35,323 nucleotides of DNA from Ichthyobacteriaceae bacterium (GTDB lineage Bacteria > Bacteroidota > Bacteroidia > Flavobacteriales > JADGDT01), in the NCBI GenBank assembly GCA_016744755.1, contig JADGDT010000001.1:1-35323 (forward strand). The letters are read 5' to 3'. Positions 7,974-13,980 of this stretch are shown in pieces (the first letter of the stretch is position 1; each line of letters opens with the position of its first letter). A program made the translations under genes and the position numbers. Below the pieces are notes generated by a model that worked only from the letters and a program-made list of their open reading frames with translations, did not search any database and had not been told where the DNA came from.

Positions 7974-10832
7974 ATGCTTAATAATATAATTAAAATAAAG
8001 ACCACTCAATGGCTACAATCAACTGATTGCAGTGTTATTGATTTGATTAAATACATACGAGAAAAAAGGGAGTTAAGAGATACGCAAATAGAAGCTATTG
8101 AGACTTATCTTTTTCTTAAAATTGAAGGACAAAACAAACCTCTTTGGAAATTATTTGCAGAAGGGTTTTTTACAAATGGCACAGACCTTTCAAAATTAAA
8201 TATAAATGAAAAAGCTCGTACTTTCTTAGGTAGTAATGCAAACGCTTTTGCTCTTTACGATTTTTCGAGACAACCATCAGGTAAAACAACATTGCTTCCT
8301 AAACTTGAAAAAATGATAGTTGATGATTGTGAAAAAATCGACTATAATAAAATTATTAAAAGCATCTTTTACAATGTAAGTTATGCAGATTATCTATTGA
8401 GCTTACCAATGGGTTCAGGTAAAACTTACTTAATGGCTGCTTTCATCTATCTAGATTTATATTTTGCAGCCAATGAACCCGAAAACAAAAACTTCTCTCA
8501 CAACTTCTTAGTTCTAATTCCATCAGGACTTAAAACTTCTATTGGTCCAAGTTTACGGACAATTGAGAATTTTGACCCATCTTGGGTAATTCCCGAACCA
8601 GCAGCAAGCAACCTTAAAAAACAACTTATTTTTGATGTATTAGACGAACAGAAATCTGCTAAAAAAAGTAATAAAGCCCGTAACCCAAACGCTCAAAAAG
8701 TAAATAAATGCTTACCTAATCCGTTCGGACAAGTATTTGTTGTGAATGCTGAAAAAGTAATTCTAAATAGAGTTGATACAACGGGACAAAAATCTCTTTT
8801 TGAAGATGATGAAGATAAAAAAGCCAATGAGCTTAGAAATTTAATTGGGCAAATACCTAACCTTTCAATCTTGATTGATGAAGTACATCACGCAGCAAGT
8901 TCCGACATAAAACTACGACAAGTTGTAAACAGTTGGAATGAAAAAGGAAACATAACTACCGTTCTTGGATTTTCAGGAACTCCTTACCTCTCTTCTCCCG
9001 AAAAAATACAGTTGACGGAATATGAAACTTTAAAAATTGCGGAAATAACCAATACAGTTTATTATTACCCACTTACAACAGCTATTAAAAAATTTCTGAA
9101 AACACCTACGGTAAAAATTGCCGAAAATCTTGACCATTTACAAATTGTAAAAAAAGGAATTGAAGATTTTAATCAACAATTTGGCAAGTTGGTTTACGAA
9201 GACAATACCATTGCAAAAGTTGCTATTTATTGTAGTAGTATTGAAATGTTGGAAAACGAAATTTATCCTTATTTACAAAGTGAATTAAATATTAATCCAA
9301 CTGAGATTTTACGCTTTCACGGAGGGAATAAATCATACAGTTTACCCAAAGAAAATGAATTACAATTCAGGTCGTTAGATACGCCTTTGTCTAAAAAAAA
9401 ATACATCTTACTTGTTGGAATTGGAAAAGAGGGCTGGGATTGTAAAAGTTTAACTTCTGTAATCCTTCCTCAAAAAAGTAAGAGCTCTTCTAAAAATACT
9501 ATTATCCAAACTACTTGTAGATGTCTTAGACAAGTAACCAGAGGTAATGATGAAAGTGCTTTGGTTTGGCTTAATAAAGAGAATGCTAACATATTAAACA
9601 AACAACTTCAAAAAGAGCAACAAACCTCTATTGAAGAAATCAATAGTATTACTCGAACATCAAAACCTGAAATGATTGAGCGAGTTTCAAGAATGGATTT
9701 TTTAAAATTACCAAAAGTCGATTTCTATCAACTAAAAGTTTCATATCAATCTATTGAGGAAGAAGAAAAAGCCAACACAAAAAAGAAACTACAAGAATTA
9801 CTCACAAACATTAGTAAATATAAATCAACAGCTTTAATCACAACAACAGGTTTAGAGCATTTAGAGGATGGCGAATTGGAGTATTTAGAAAATTCTGGAG
9901 CTAATTTCGCCAATTTTAACACTTGGGTTTTCAATATTGCAAAAGAGAGTTTTGAGACAACAACAAGTAATAAATTACACCAATTCGATACGGAATTAAA
10001 AGAAGTTTTTGAAGCCATTACTTTTGAAAAAGACAAACAACTTTTCTTTAACGAACAGTTTGATTTATACTTAATAAATTCTCAGATACGTGTTGCTTTT
10101 AGCATTAAAAAGAGTTTAAAAACTAAACAAGAAATAATTCCACAAGAAGCTAACTTATTGATTGTTGATAAACTAAAAGCTATTGTGCAAAATAAAAACA
10201 TTTTCCCTGGTAAAGATATTAGCAAGCAAATTTTAGATTTTGATAAAAATCCATTGTCTTCTGAAACATTTAACAAGCAGAAGCAAGAAAAAATATTACA
10301 ATTAACTCAAGAAGGTAAGTTTGAGGAAATTGCAAAAGTGGCTTCCGAAACAATACATCCAATTATTGGACAGAAAGACAAATCCTTTCACTTATTACCC
10401 TACAATTTTGATAGTTCTTTTGAATTAAACATCCTCAACAAAGCTCTACAGCTAAAAAATTTTAAAGAGAAAAACTTAGAAATCTATTTTAACGGAGAAA
10501 GAGGAATTACAGAATTTGTAATCAACTGTTTTGCTAAAAAAGGTAAGAATTGGAGAAATGTAGGGAAATACACTACAGATTTTCTAATTCTAAATAGAAC
10601 TTCTGAAAACAAAATACACAAAGCCTTAATTATTGAAACCAAAGGAGAAGGTTTTTCCAATGACCAAAGTTTTATTAAAAAGAAAAACTTTGTGGAAACC
10701 GAATTTTTAGAACAAAACAATGAGAAGTTTGGCTATCAAAAATTTGATTTCTTGTACTTAGAAGATAGCGAAAGCCTAACCAATAATGTTGGAAAATTGA
10801 ACACTAAAATCAATTCGTTTTTTAGCGAGTAA
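7974..10832 (+). CDS. Type III restriction enzyme, Res (helicase-nuclease) subunit
   Basis: A 952-residue SF2 helicase-nuclease with the length expected for type III Res. Walker A PMGSGKT is at 145-151, the motif II box DEVH at 302-305, motif III GFSGTP at 332-337, and the C-terminal RecA-like domain holds GKEGWDCKSL and the arginine-containing QTTCRCLRQV. Near the C-terminus Asp869 (TTDFLIL) with Glu888 and Lys890 (ETKG) form a PD-(D/E)xK nuclease core. It would translocate or switch along unmethylated DNA and cut together with Mod. No promoter was confidently found; TATTGTTG at 7913-7920 is one base off consensus. It is unusual that res precedes mod and that two other genes lie between them, since type III operons normally read mod then res. 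Confidence 0.9.
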   Translation: MLNNIIKIKTTQWLQSTDCSVIDLIKYIREKRELRDTQIEAIETYLFLKIEGQNKPLWKLFAEGFFTNGTDLSKLNINEKARTFLGSNANAFALYDFSRQPSGKTTLLPKLEKMIVDDCEKIDYNKIIKSIFYNVSYADYLLSLPMGSGKTYLMAAFIYLDLYFAANEPENKNFSHNFLVLIPSGLKTSIGPSLRTIENFDPSWVIPEPAASNLKKQLIFDVLDEQKSAKKSNKARNPNAQKVNKCLPNPFGQVFVVNAEKVILNRVDTTGQKSLFEDDEDKKANELRNLIGQIPNLSILIDEVHHAASSDIKLRQVVNSWNEKGNITTVLGFSGTPYLSSPEKIQLTEYETLKIAEITNTVYYYPLTTAIKKFLKTPTVKIAENLDHLQIVKKGIEDFNQQFGKLVYEDNTIAKVAIYCSSIEMLENEIYPYLQSELNINPTEILRFHGGNKSYSLPKENELQFRSLDTPLSKKKYILLVGIGKEGWDCKSLTSVILPQKSKSSSKNTIIQTTCRCLRQVTRGNDESALVWLNKENANILNKQLQKEQQTSIEEINSITRTSKPEMIERVSRMDFLKLPKVDFYQLKVSYQSIEEEEKANTKKKLQELLTNISKYKSTALITTTGLEHLEDGELEYLENSGANFANFNTWVFNIAKESFETTTSNKLHQFDTELKEVFEAITFEKDKQLFFNEQFDLYLINSQIRVAFSIKKSLKTKQEIIPQEANLLIVDKLKAIVQNKNIFPGKDISKQILDFDKNPLSSETFNKQKQEKILQLTQEGKFEEIAKVASETIHPIIGQKDKSFHLLPYNFDSSFELNILNKALQLKNFKEKNLEIYFNGERGITEFVINCFAKKGKNWRNVGKYTTDFLILNRTSENKIHKALIIETKGEGFSNDQSFIKKKNFVETEFLEQNNEKFGYQKFDFLYLEDSESLTNNVGKLNTKINSFFSE

Positions 10833-10844
10833 ACAATATTTAAA

Positions 10845-11690
10845 ATGAAATCAGAAATTATACAATCATTAACCAAAAATTTTGAAGAGCACTCTTTTAC
10901 AACAGAAGAAGGTATTGAATTTTGGTTTGCTCGTGATTTACAGCACTTATTAGGTTATGCGAAATGGGAGAATTTTAGTAAAGTTATTACAAAAGCCAAA
11001 ATTTCTTGTGAAGTGAGTGGTAATGATGTTTCTAATCATTTTCCTGACATCAGGAAAACGATAGCAATGCCTAAAGGAGCATCAAAAGAAATTGATGATT
11101 TAATGCTAACAAGATATGCTTGTTATTTGATAACCCAAAACGGAGACCCAAGAAAAGAAGCCATTGCATTTGCTCAAAACTATTTTGCTATTCAAACCCG
11201 AAAATTTGAATTGATAGAACAACGCATAAAAGATTGGGAAAGATTACAGGCAAGACAAAAACTAACCTATTCTGAAAAAGAACTTTCTGAACTGATTTAT
11301 GAGCAAACAGGAAATGACAGGAATTTTGGAATTATAAGAAGTAAAGGTGACCAAGCTTTATTTGGTGGTAAATCTACCAAGCAAATGAAAACCAAATTAG
11401 GTATTCCTCAAAACAGACCTTTAGCCGATTTCTTGCCAACTATTACCATAAAGGCAAAAGATTTTGCTACAGAAATTACCGTTTTTAATACCAAAGAAAA
11501 AAGCTTAGGAAACGAAAGACAAATATCTGCAGAACACATTACCAATAATCGTTCTGTTAGAAAAATACTATTAGAAAGAGGTATAAAACCAGAAGAATTA
11601 CCCGCAGAAGAAGACATTAAGAAACTGGAAAGACGAGTGAGCTCTGAGGAAAAGAAATTGGGTAAAAATCCTGATGGATTGAAAAAGTGA
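10845..11690 (+). CDS. dinD: DNA damage-inducible protein D (DinD) family
   Basis: A 281-residue DinD homologue. The N-terminal Bro-N-like part has FWFARDLQHLLGYAKWENF (about 27-45) and KAKISCEVSGNDV; the middle has LTRYACYLITQNGDPRKEAIAFAQ, and the C-terminal half has LTYSEKELSELIYE and the DRNFGIIRSKGD segment. E. coli DinD is LexA-regulated and the protein is reported to inhibit RecA-mediated recombination. The gene starts 12 nt after res and precedes the four-helix-bundle gene, inside the restriction-modification operon. No LexA-type operator was seen at its start, so its expression probably follows res. DinD-like genes do accompany restriction loci in Bacteroidota, to my recollection; the role there is unproven. 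Confidence 0.85.
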   Translation: MKSEIIQSLTKNFEEHSFTTEEGIEFWFARDLQHLLGYAKWENFSKVITKAKISCEVSGNDVSNHFPDIRKTIAMPKGASKEIDDLMLTRYACYLITQNGDPRKEAIAFAQNYFAIQTRKFELIEQRIKDWERLQARQKLTYSEKELSELIYEQTGNDRNFGIIRSKGDQALFGGKSTKQMKTKLGIPQNRPLADFLPTITIKAKDFATEITVFNTKEKSLGNERQISAEHITNNRSVRKILLERGIKPEELPAEEDIKKLERRVSSEEKKLGKNPDGLKK

Positions 11691-12086
11691 AGAATTAAAA
11701 GATAAAAATGAAGAATAACATCATACAAGAAAAAAGTTTTGATTTTGCTATTCGCATTGTAAATCTTTACAAATACTTAAAGGAAGATAAAAAGGAATAC
11801 GTTTTATCTAAGCAACTTTTAAGAAGTGGTACTTCGATAGGAGCAAATATTGAAGAAGGAATTGGAGGGCAAAGCAAAAAAGATTTTATTGCCAAATTGC
11901 AAATTTCACTAAAAGAAACAAGAGAAACACACTATTGGTTACGCTTATTAAAAGCAACGGATTACTTAACAGAAAACGAAACAAAAAATATACTTACAGA
12001 ATGTGAAGACATTAGGAACATACTTACAGCCATACTAAAAAGTGCAAAAGCCAATTCTTAATTTTTCATTCTTAATTTTTAATTAT
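11691..12086. mobile_element. IVS-like cassette: inverted repeats tightly bracketing the four-helix-bundle gene
   Basis: Left arm 11691-11716 and right arm 12061-12086 are inverted repeats with 21 of 26 positions complementary. The left arm contains the gene's ATG (11708) and the right arm begins at its last stop base (12061). The right side also holds a direct repeat, ATTCTTAATTTTT, at 12054-12066 and 12068-12080. Removing 11691-12086 leaves the dinD stop about 7 nt from the mod ATG. The arms are AT-rich, which raises the chance of a fortuitous match, but their fit to the gene ends is notable. 23S rRNA intervening sequences that encode this protein family are also closed by terminal complementary arms. 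Confidence 0.5.
11708..12061 (+). CDS. Four-helix bundle protein (23S rRNA intervening-sequence protein family)
   Basis: A 117-residue helical protein with the family signature: SFDFAIRIVNLYKYL at the N-terminus, LSKQLLRSGTSIGANIEEG (about 37-55), KKDFIAKLQISLKETRETHYWLRLL (about 60-84), and a last helix around DIRNILTAILKSAK. The basic, conserved face is thought to bind nucleic acid, and the fold is shared with Avd accessory proteins of diversity-generating retroelements. No reverse transcriptase or template/variable repeat is present here, so a retroelement is not supported. Members are found inside 23S rRNA insertions and as stray genes scattered through many genomes, including next to restriction genes. 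Whether it takes part in restriction or is a passenger is unknown; the flanking repeats favour a passenger. Confidence 0.9.
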   Translation: MKNNIIQEKSFDFAIRIVNLYKYLKEDKKEYVLSKQLLRSGTSIGANIEEGIGGQSKKDFIAKLQISLKETRETHYWLRLLKATDYLTENETKNILTECEDIRNILTAILKSAKANS

Positions 12087-12093
12087 AATAAAG

Positions 12094-13980
12094 ATGCCAA
12101 TAAAATACATACCATACACGCCAAATACAGTTGAAGGGCAAGCCGTTTTAGATAACATTACCCGTACACAACGAGTATTGCGTTATCGTGAAAACAATGA
12201 GGTGTATAACCGTATTAAAAGAGGAATGCCCTACTATGAAGTAGAAACCATAGAACAAGTAGGTAAAGCATCTGAAAACATGGTAATGAGAGGCGAATGT
12301 ATTTCTGCTTGTGCGTATTTAAAAGAGCAAAACATAAAAGTAGATTTGGTATATATTGACCCACCTTTTGCAAGTGGAGCAGATTATGCTAAAAAAGTAT
12401 ATATCCGTAAAAACCCGAAACTTGCCGAGAAGATAAAACAAGCCGAGCAAGAAATGGAAATGGACGAACTAAAGGCTTTTGAAGAAACAATGTATGGCGA
12501 TATTTGGGAGAAGGAAGATTACCTAAATTGGATGTACGAAAACTTACAAGCCATTAAAAGTATAATGAGTGATACCGCAAGTATTTATGTTCATTTAGAT
12601 TGGCATATTGGACATTATGTAAAAATATTGATGGATGAGGTTTTTGGAGAGGAAAGGTTTCTAAATGAAATAATTTGGTGCTACACGGGTCCAACAAATC
12701 AAAAGAATAATTTCCCAAGAAAGCACGATAATATCTACATATTTACTAATTCAGAAAATTTTATATTTAATGGTGATGATGTTAGAGTTGACTTTAAAAA
12801 AAGCACAAAATCAGGAGGTAAAACATCTTTAGCAGGAAAAGGCACAAATGAAGTTTTAGAAGCATTAGATAAGAAAGGTAAAATAATTGAAGATTGGTGG
12901 GCTGATGTTGCAGATTTAGGGAAAGTACATAATGAATCTGTTGGCTATTCGACTCAAAAACCACATAAATTACTAAACAGAATAATTAGTGCAAGCTCAA
13001 ACAAAGGAATGTTTGTAGCCGATTTTTTTGGAGGTAGTGGTGTAACGGCAAAAGTAGCTAATGATTTGGGACGTAAATTTATACATGTTGATATTGGTGT
13101 AAACAGCATACAAACCGTAAGAGATAGATTAATTGCCGAAAAAGCCGACTTTAAAATATTAGAGGTAAAAGATGGTGTGAGTTTGTTCCGAAACCCACAA
13201 CAAACAATGGATAAATTGGCAACATTAATTACTGGTTTACAGCAAAAAGTAGAAGGCGTTTCTAAGTTTTGGTTTGGAGCAATTAACGATAGTAAATTAG
13301 GTACAGTACCTGTTTATGTTCCTAACTTAATAGATAGCAAACAAAAGGTGTTGGATATACCTACCATCAACAGAATTATCAACCAAGAAATACAAGAATT
13401 AAACATTACAGCTAAAAAGGTAATCGTTTATTACATTGATATTGATGATGAAAAGGAATTAAAGAAATTTATAAAAGATAACAACGCTACTACGGTAGAT
13501 ATAGAACTTAAAGACCTTAAAAATTTGCTACACGAAACAGTAGTAAATGATGAGGTTGAATTTACGTGCAAAAAAGTAAAAGTAACCAACGAGAATAAAA
13601 ATCTTTTTGATACAGCCGATGCCAAAGAATTGTACGAAGTAAGCATTGACCGATTTGTAAGCGACAGACTAATACAAAAAATAAATGCCTTTAACGAAAA
13701 AGGAAATTCACAATCCTTAAAAAACGGAAAAGCATTTAATCCAATCGGAATAAGTGAAGAAGGATTGGAATTAATAGAACTCATTTCTTTGGACTGCAAG
13801 AACAAAAAAGGAGAATGGCTTAGCTCAACTGAAATTAAAATTGACAAATTAGGTTATACAATCTCAAACGGAGAAAAATCAAAAAGTTTTTGGAACGGAA
13901 AAATTACTACAACTGAAAAGCCTTTGAGAATAAAAATAAGAAATATAAGTGGAGACGAATTAATTGCAGAGATAAAATAA
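12094..13980 (+). CDS. Type III modification methyltransferase (Mod), adenine-specific
   Basis: A 628-residue amino-methyltransferase of the beta class: catalytic motif IV DPPF at 89-92 comes before the AdoMet-binding FFGGSG at 311-316. Between them is the STQKP segment (286-290, motif X) and a middle portion with [11 protein letters not shown] (190-200) and [12 protein letters not shown]6-adenine methylation is expected from DPPF. In type III Mods the specificity region lies between the catalytic and AdoMet motifs; the target sequence cannot be read from it. The C-terminal 290 residues are likely for dimer and Res contact. With res it should make one type III system, although separated from it by dinD and the four-helix-bundle gene. 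No simple-sequence tract that could cause phase variation was noticed. The stop lies 5 nt before lpxB. Confidence 0.9.

Follow-up and report, generated by a model that had tools for sequence, protein, structure and literature searches.

DinD has for decades been a poorly understood product of an SOS gene. The E. coli protein is reported to inhibit postsynaptic RecA filaments and to limit RecA strand exchange (PMC4129442 and PMC4849656, citing Uranga 2011), and DinD has been found joined to a restriction-modification (R-M) system in Bibersteinia trehalosi, where a dinD-hsdS fusion, Btr190I, is described as retaining methylation of its site (PMC4996451). Experiments on a separate, R-M-linked DinD were not found in the literature searched. 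Here we describe a window of 35,323 nt (the whole stretch of DNA analysed) from an Ichthyobacteriaceae bacterium, in which dinD stands as a separate gene within a type III-like operon, whereas Btr190I is type I and has DinD fused to the specificity subunit. PrrC is an example of an accessory gene of R-M operons. DinD resembles RhuM, PrrC and similar genes in being a non-essential gene lodged in an R-M operon, and differs from them in that no recognised nuclease or toxin domain was found in it with Pfam and NCBIfam profiles. Our preferred reading, to which we give a probability of about 0.4, is that this dinD is a portable DNA-conflict accessory which was captured into the gap between res and mod, is made with the nuclease and would act on the DNA that the nuclease cuts.

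The reading frame at positions 10845–11690 (+ strand) encodes 281 amino acids and had been called DinD in the initial annotation. The assignment was upheld by a match to NCBIfam NF008573 (DNA damage-inducible protein D) at 372 bits, above the curated cut-off of 242, with residues 1–279 of 281 aligned to profile positions 1–287 of 288. A Bro-N domain (Pfam PF02498, 41.5 bits) occupies residues 20–110, and the C-terminal part is helical, as judged from profiles and AlphaFold. The window copy is approximately 37% identical to E. coli DinD; the likeness lies in the full-length family match and in invariant residues common to both subfamilies and to viral copies. Two PADLOC models were also matched, namely the candidate family PDC-S13 at 391 bits, of which we found no mention in the literature searched, and a type I specificity model over residues 13–278; the latter match would be expected if that model includes a DinD-HsdS fusion.

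The order of genes in the window is surE, a small membrane ORF, res (7974–10832), dinD, a gene for a 117-aa 23S_rRNA_IVP/four-helix-bundle (S23) protein (11708–12061), mod (12094–13980) and, from 13986, lpxB. The four genes from res to mod are all on the + strand and tightly spaced. The ATG of dinD lies 12 nt downstream of the end of res, a distance given in the initial annotation and reproduced from the ORF coordinates, and the close co-directional layout makes co-transcription with the nuclease gene probable, as had been proposed there. The S23 gene between dinD and mod is an addition to the gene list of that annotation. Two other genomes of the genus lack res-dinD-S23-mod, and in them nothing separates surE, the small membrane ORF and lpxB; this uninterrupted arrangement identifies the four genes as an island. 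An Rfam search of the window gave no match, and the repeats found at the edges of the res-mod gap were short ones only. Elsewhere in the same genome there is a broken second dinD, an N-terminal fragment with three stop codons (G000:C64:257-502, L002).

The restriction context was confirmed by Pfam, which placed ResIII in the protein upstream of DinD and N6_N4_Mtase in the protein encoded at 12094–13980. Res (952 aa) has the ResIII helicase of a type III-like restriction subunit; the residues G147, G149, K150, T151, D302, E303 and H305 of the helicase are invariant in an alignment of three relatives, as are D869, E888 and K890 near the C terminus, which make up an endonuclease-like motif (D869...E888-x-K890). 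Mod (628 aa) shows the beta-class motif order, with DPPF (residues 89–92) preceding FFGGSG (residues 311–316); its best PADLOC model is the type III methyltransferase, and it matches EcoP15I Mod in the PDB (E 1.9e-14). The operon hence combines a ResIII helicase subunit bearing an endonuclease motif with a beta-class Mod, the combination by which we recognised type III. No PADLOC model matched Res, and NCBIfam gave only a weak, below-cut-off match. Judged by its sequence, Res is a divergent subfamily; since no curated type III Res model recognises it, we refer to the system as type III-like.

To place the operon among its relatives, genome contigs were scanned with the Res alignment, resulting in 401 relatives, of which 80 were kept. 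The 3' end of res was present in 74 of these 80 loci and mod was also in view in 68, in all of which (68/68) res precedes mod. The res-mod gap, which in the window spans 10833–12093 (+ strand), holds no gene in 42 loci (43 systems, as L061 has two); in these, mod begins –5 to 43 nt past res, with a median of 4 nt. The system with the nearest Res (84% identity, L026) belongs to this group. A larger gap was observed in 26 of the 68 loci, and 24 of the 26 contain an ORF of at least 60 aa. The occupants, assigned to classes partly by Pfam or PADLOC and partly by resemblance to a tested member, are RhuM-like (7 loci, L046 tested), S23 (4 loci by tblastn, and three further loci whose sequence stops short of mod), MNT-HEPN (4 loci, L037 tested) and Schlafen/AlbA (2 loci, L045 tested); single loci carry AAA with a PtuB-like HNH, AAA with an unknown gene, a Dcm-like gene with GmrSD_N and an unknown gene, PDDEXK_3, a GIY-YIG-like gene (by eye), a transposase-like gene (by eye) and an unknown gene. 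The gap is therefore a variable cargo slot in which DinD is a rare occupant: dinD was found in none of the other 80 loci of this Res family. The same count rules out DinD as a conserved third subunit of the type III-like enzyme. A dedicated partnership between the two was not supported, given this count and the closest relatives of the window DinD on the tree described below. The slot can also be read as an inventory of the small conflict modules carried along by type III-like systems. In one locus (L052:10872-13188), it contains two RhuM-like genes and, between them, a fragment that opens with the first 38 codons of mod and continues into the final codons of res; the sequence gives the impression that a circle made up of the res end, the cargo and the mod start had integrated there.

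These data bear on the preferred reading in an unfavorable way, because type III-like systems evidently exist without dinD. They also bring in a competing explanation which, for the operon of the window, is almost as likely: DinD and S23 could both be independent mobile or selfish genes of phage, satellite or plasmid origin, for which the res-mod gap is a safe, transcribed landing site; they would then have no functional connection to restriction, and the R-M system would provide expression and persistence only. That the slot occupants are unrelated to one another, and that the window is alone among 81 loci in having dinD in the slot, are observations in agreement with such independent cargo.

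We next considered the distribution of DinD at large. DinD proteins over the cut-off were present in 50 of 395 Bacteroidota genomes. For comparison with 60 DinD loci, taken with flanks of up to 8 kb, 40 control stretches (17 kb each) were placed by hand in the same genomes, mostly at round coordinates. Excluding the window's own, 58 of the 63 over-cut-off rows (hand count) were fetched, with five partial or broken ones omitted; two further full-length rows came from another search, and G114 was left out. ORFs were labelled using iterated HMMs that started from the hsd genes of E. coli and from R-M proteins that had been tested. Three loci (L156, L158 and L164) were dropped from the R-M-linked group since their "HsdR" matches covered just 98–116 aa, which lowered the count from 29/60 to 26/60, and a stretch in L151 and L152 that was initially labelled HsdR was counted as HsdM in line with a later label. 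An R-M gene was located within 5 kb of 26 of the 60 dinD genes and of 1 of the 40 control centres (Fisher p 1.9e-6), in a sample that is uneven, with many loci from genus code g108 and at least one linked locus in 12 of 21 genus codes (hand tally). Random scatter of DinD relative to R-M genes is thereby excluded, and the non-random association anticipated in the initial annotation is substantiated. For the remaining 34 loci, some of which adjoin housekeeping genes such as feoB, no R-M gene lies within that distance, which counts against the preferred reading.

By type, the linked loci comprise 19 of type I, six of type III, one of which (L185) has only a Mod-like ORF 3.4 kb away, and one of type ISP. 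Pfam and PADLOC checks of selected neighbours identified HsdR in L149, L159 and L146, a type III Mod or Res in L171 and L176, Mod in L195 and the ISP enzyme in L168. The gene arrangements are diverse: hsdM-dinD-hsdS in type I loci, res-dinD-mod (L195), mod-dinD-res (L176), SNF2-dinD-mod-res (L171) and dinD-type ISP (L168), and, on viral contigs, dinD-mod-res (L241) and SNF2-DUF4391-dinD-mod (L239). In 24 of the 60 loci the R-M gene is no more than 400 nt from dinD, and all 24 pairs are co-directional. This uniform orientation, the overlapping or touching reading frames on both sides of dinD in L195 and the known dinD-hsdS fusion (PMC4996451) all argue against DinD being a mere passenger of R-M operons. 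Two of these rows have further features of their own: in L171 (2498-11796) the SNF2-type helicase, for which DrmD is the best PADLOC model, is followed by dinD, mod and res, and an SOS-associated SRAP gene lies upstream; in L239 (2013-7873) the SNF2-type helicase, dinD and mod stand in one row with a DUF4391 gene.

A tree was built from the C-terminal part of DinD with 101 rows, the viral rows having been thinned at 88% identity. Eight rows carry the type III label, which required seven changes, at least five of them forced by starred branches; for the 19 rows labelled type I the figure was 12, with at least seven forced. The nearest rows to the window DinD (L165 at 88%, L194 and L172) are all without R-M linkage. 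Taken together, the label changes and the unlinked nearest rows indicate repeated capture into R-M operons and not a single R-M-dedicated lineage. Within the tree, one type I-linked clade looks stable, 9 of its 10 rows having that linkage; such persistence speaks against independent cargo, with which the unlinked nearest relatives of the window DinD are in turn in accord. One of these relatives (L194:2559-8840) lies behind a gene whose 1765-aa product gave weak matches to STAND-type NTPases and also matched a PADLOC candidate.

The structure predicted for the window DinD offers a clue to function. AlphaFold with 27 aligned family members gave a model with pLDDT 90.8 and pTM 0.72 (pLDDT 43.9 without the alignment), and its best PDB matches were all DdrC of Deinococcus radiodurans. 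Foldseek returned E 1.1e-6, probability 1.00, TM (query) 0.38 and rmsd 10.3; VIA returned Z 16.0 and rmsd 10.2 over 191 aligned residues, the next unrelated structure being a designed helical repeat at Z 8.3. The DdrC-like fold is thus a topology found by two aligners with a large rmsd, which may reflect domain placement or swapping. The predicted fold is shared over DinD residues 9–245. The sequence match is weak: a profile of the same 27 proteins searched against all PDB sequences placed DdrC first, at E 0.025 over residues 132–244, and a single-sequence search found nothing. In the alignment, read by eye, 7 of the 10 family-invariant DinD residues of 132–244 recur in DdrC (R137, L147, L172, D195, T212, H231 and R239). 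Based on the predicted fold and the weak profile match, DinD and DdrC are taken to be distant relatives; the weakness of the sequence match and the large rmsd count against the preferred reading. We know of no link between DdrC and R-M systems, and in the literature searched the two proteins occur together in a review on solar radiation only. DdrC is described as Deinococcus-specific and controlled by DdrO/IrrE. It binds single-stranded and double-stranded DNA without sequence specificity, shields DNA against nucleases, condenses and circularises DNA, anneals strands and may keep fragments together (PMC5436757).

Three possible roles had been put forward in the initial annotation: restraining repair, preventing recombination of phage DNA after cutting, and sensing of damage. 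A role of DinD at DNA ends or on single-stranded DNA is plausible from the DdrC-like model, and the following course of events would account for the operon. The dinD gene would have been captured, together with or next to the S23 gene, into the variable res-mod gap of a type III-like operon, so as to be produced along with the Res nuclease. DinD would, like DdrC, bind DNA ends or single-stranded DNA, for which a catalytic site is not needed; made with Res, it could hold the ends of Res-cut DNA away from RecA-driven recombination, with the result that cut invading DNA would not be rescued. What DinD recognises would depend on its Bro-N part, which is exchangeable. The DdrC analogy could also lead in the opposite direction, in that protection of ends, if DinD acts alike, could favor repair rather than block it. 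DinD might then hold the ends left by accidental cuts in the host chromosome and so reduce the cost of the nuclease. The shielding of DNA from nucleases reported for DdrC, which may keep fragments together (PMC5436757), and the co-expression implied by the gene layout suit such self-protection, but E. coli DinD reportedly inhibits RecA strand exchange (PMC4129442, PMC4849656), which would hinder repair, and most systems of this Res family manage without DinD; we consider self-protection improbable.

DinD is also found outside chromosomal R-M loci. Matches occurred in 251 of 50,697 phage records, only 42 of which cover at least 80% of the protein, and in 35 of 72,556 plasmids, only 26 with such coverage; in Thiothrix plasmids, dinD follows parA-parB. 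In two viral contigs, Pfam places DinD with an S24-peptidase repressor on one side and an integrase on the other. These are prophage or satellite copies behind a repressor of the LexA/CI type (L253:6332-9169 and L281:6137-10223), with a spacing of 8 nt in the former. A dinD beside int in a streptococcal island had already been noted in a review (PMC4129442). In pneumococcus, deletions covering the dinD-like gene of a satellite are reported not to have the large effect on transformation that removal of the whole element has (PMC10602874), a result that counts against the preferred reading. The common occurrence of DinD beside an integrase in prophages and satellites (also PMC4129442) is a further point in favor of independent mobile cargo. 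Another reading concerns regulation: were Bro-N a DNA-binding domain as in phage antirepressors, DinD might control transcription or establishment of the R-M operon in the manner of a C protein. Such a function would fit the Bro-N domain assigned by Pfam, the structural neighbours of DinD among viral proteins, which are antirepressor, KilA-N and regulatory proteins, and the placement of DinD after an S24 repressor in prophages. It is difficult to reconcile with the 43 related systems that lack any slot gene, with the position of dinD behind res, which is late for an establishment regulator, and with the absence of sequence specificity in DdrC, the best fold match (PMC5436757), and we regard it as quite improbable.

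The SOS connection suggested by the initial annotation was not borne out for this operon. In E. coli K-12, dinD is a solitary gene flanked by yicC and yicG and has a LexA box (CTG-N10-CAG) at –61, as seen in three E. coli strains, while the window dinD belongs to an R-M operon in which this motif, the sole LexA motif sought, is absent from the upstream and intergenic stretches. No LexA over the cut-off was detected in the window's genome (best score 33 against 110.95 bits). With neither this box nor a LexA over the cut-off found, SOS co-regulation of the operon was rejected.

Sequence comparisons revealed that the N-terminal part of DinD is exchanged in other lineages. In E. coli, dinD of K-12 (L322:3761-4585) and of STEC309 (L323:10385-11209) share 59% DNA identity over nt 1–246, the first 29 nt being identical, and 97% beyond, i.e. 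two N-terminal cassettes (nt ~30–246) are attached to near-identical C-terminal parts. A dinD match was obtained in 4668 of 5426 E. coli genomes, nearly all of which are divided between the two cassettes (K-12 version, 1881/5426; other version, 2782/5426); strain TR01 is counted for both, the stretches matched being largely complementary. The gene of strain 1919D62 has a cassette 100% identical to that of STEC309, while its C-terminal part resembles K-12 (99.3%) more than STEC309 (97.2%), a mixed parentage demonstrating that the two parts recombine. Likewise, among type I-linked copies, L136 is 97–98% identical to L137, L138 and L142 in the C-terminal part and 41–43% identical in the N-terminal core; the neighbours in L136 and L137 are 98% identical in HsdM and 35% in HsdS. 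From these sequences, the N-terminal part looks like a recognition part under diversifying exchange. It is conceivable, though in our view doubtful, that DinD and DdrC make up one family of DNA-break-binding conflict proteins, recruited by R-M operons to the ends that nucleases make and carried by prophages and satellites beside integrase, with Bro-N as an exchangeable cassette for specificity, akin to HsdS target domains and present in two common versions in E. coli. If so, the textbook SOS gene dinD would have been domesticated from an anti-phage or mobile-element family. The repeated capture by R-M operons, the DdrC-like fold and the two E. coli versions open the way to cheap, direct tests of DinD function: whether it binds DNA ends, whether it inhibits RecA when phage DNA has been cut, and whether its alleles differ in phage phenotype in laboratory E. 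coli.

In STEC309, the resident dinD has genes for SNF2, DUF262/DUF1524, mod and res immediately upstream of it (L323:22-9931). More than 80% of a mod-res-dinD query was present in 2 of the 5426 E. coli genomes, STEC309 and one other. That E. coli dinD might be what is left of a former type III locus was considered and rejected, since about 230 bp of the usual upstream DNA, LexA box included, precedes dinD in STEC309; the SNF2-DUF262/DUF1524-mod-res segment looks like an insertion beside the resident gene.
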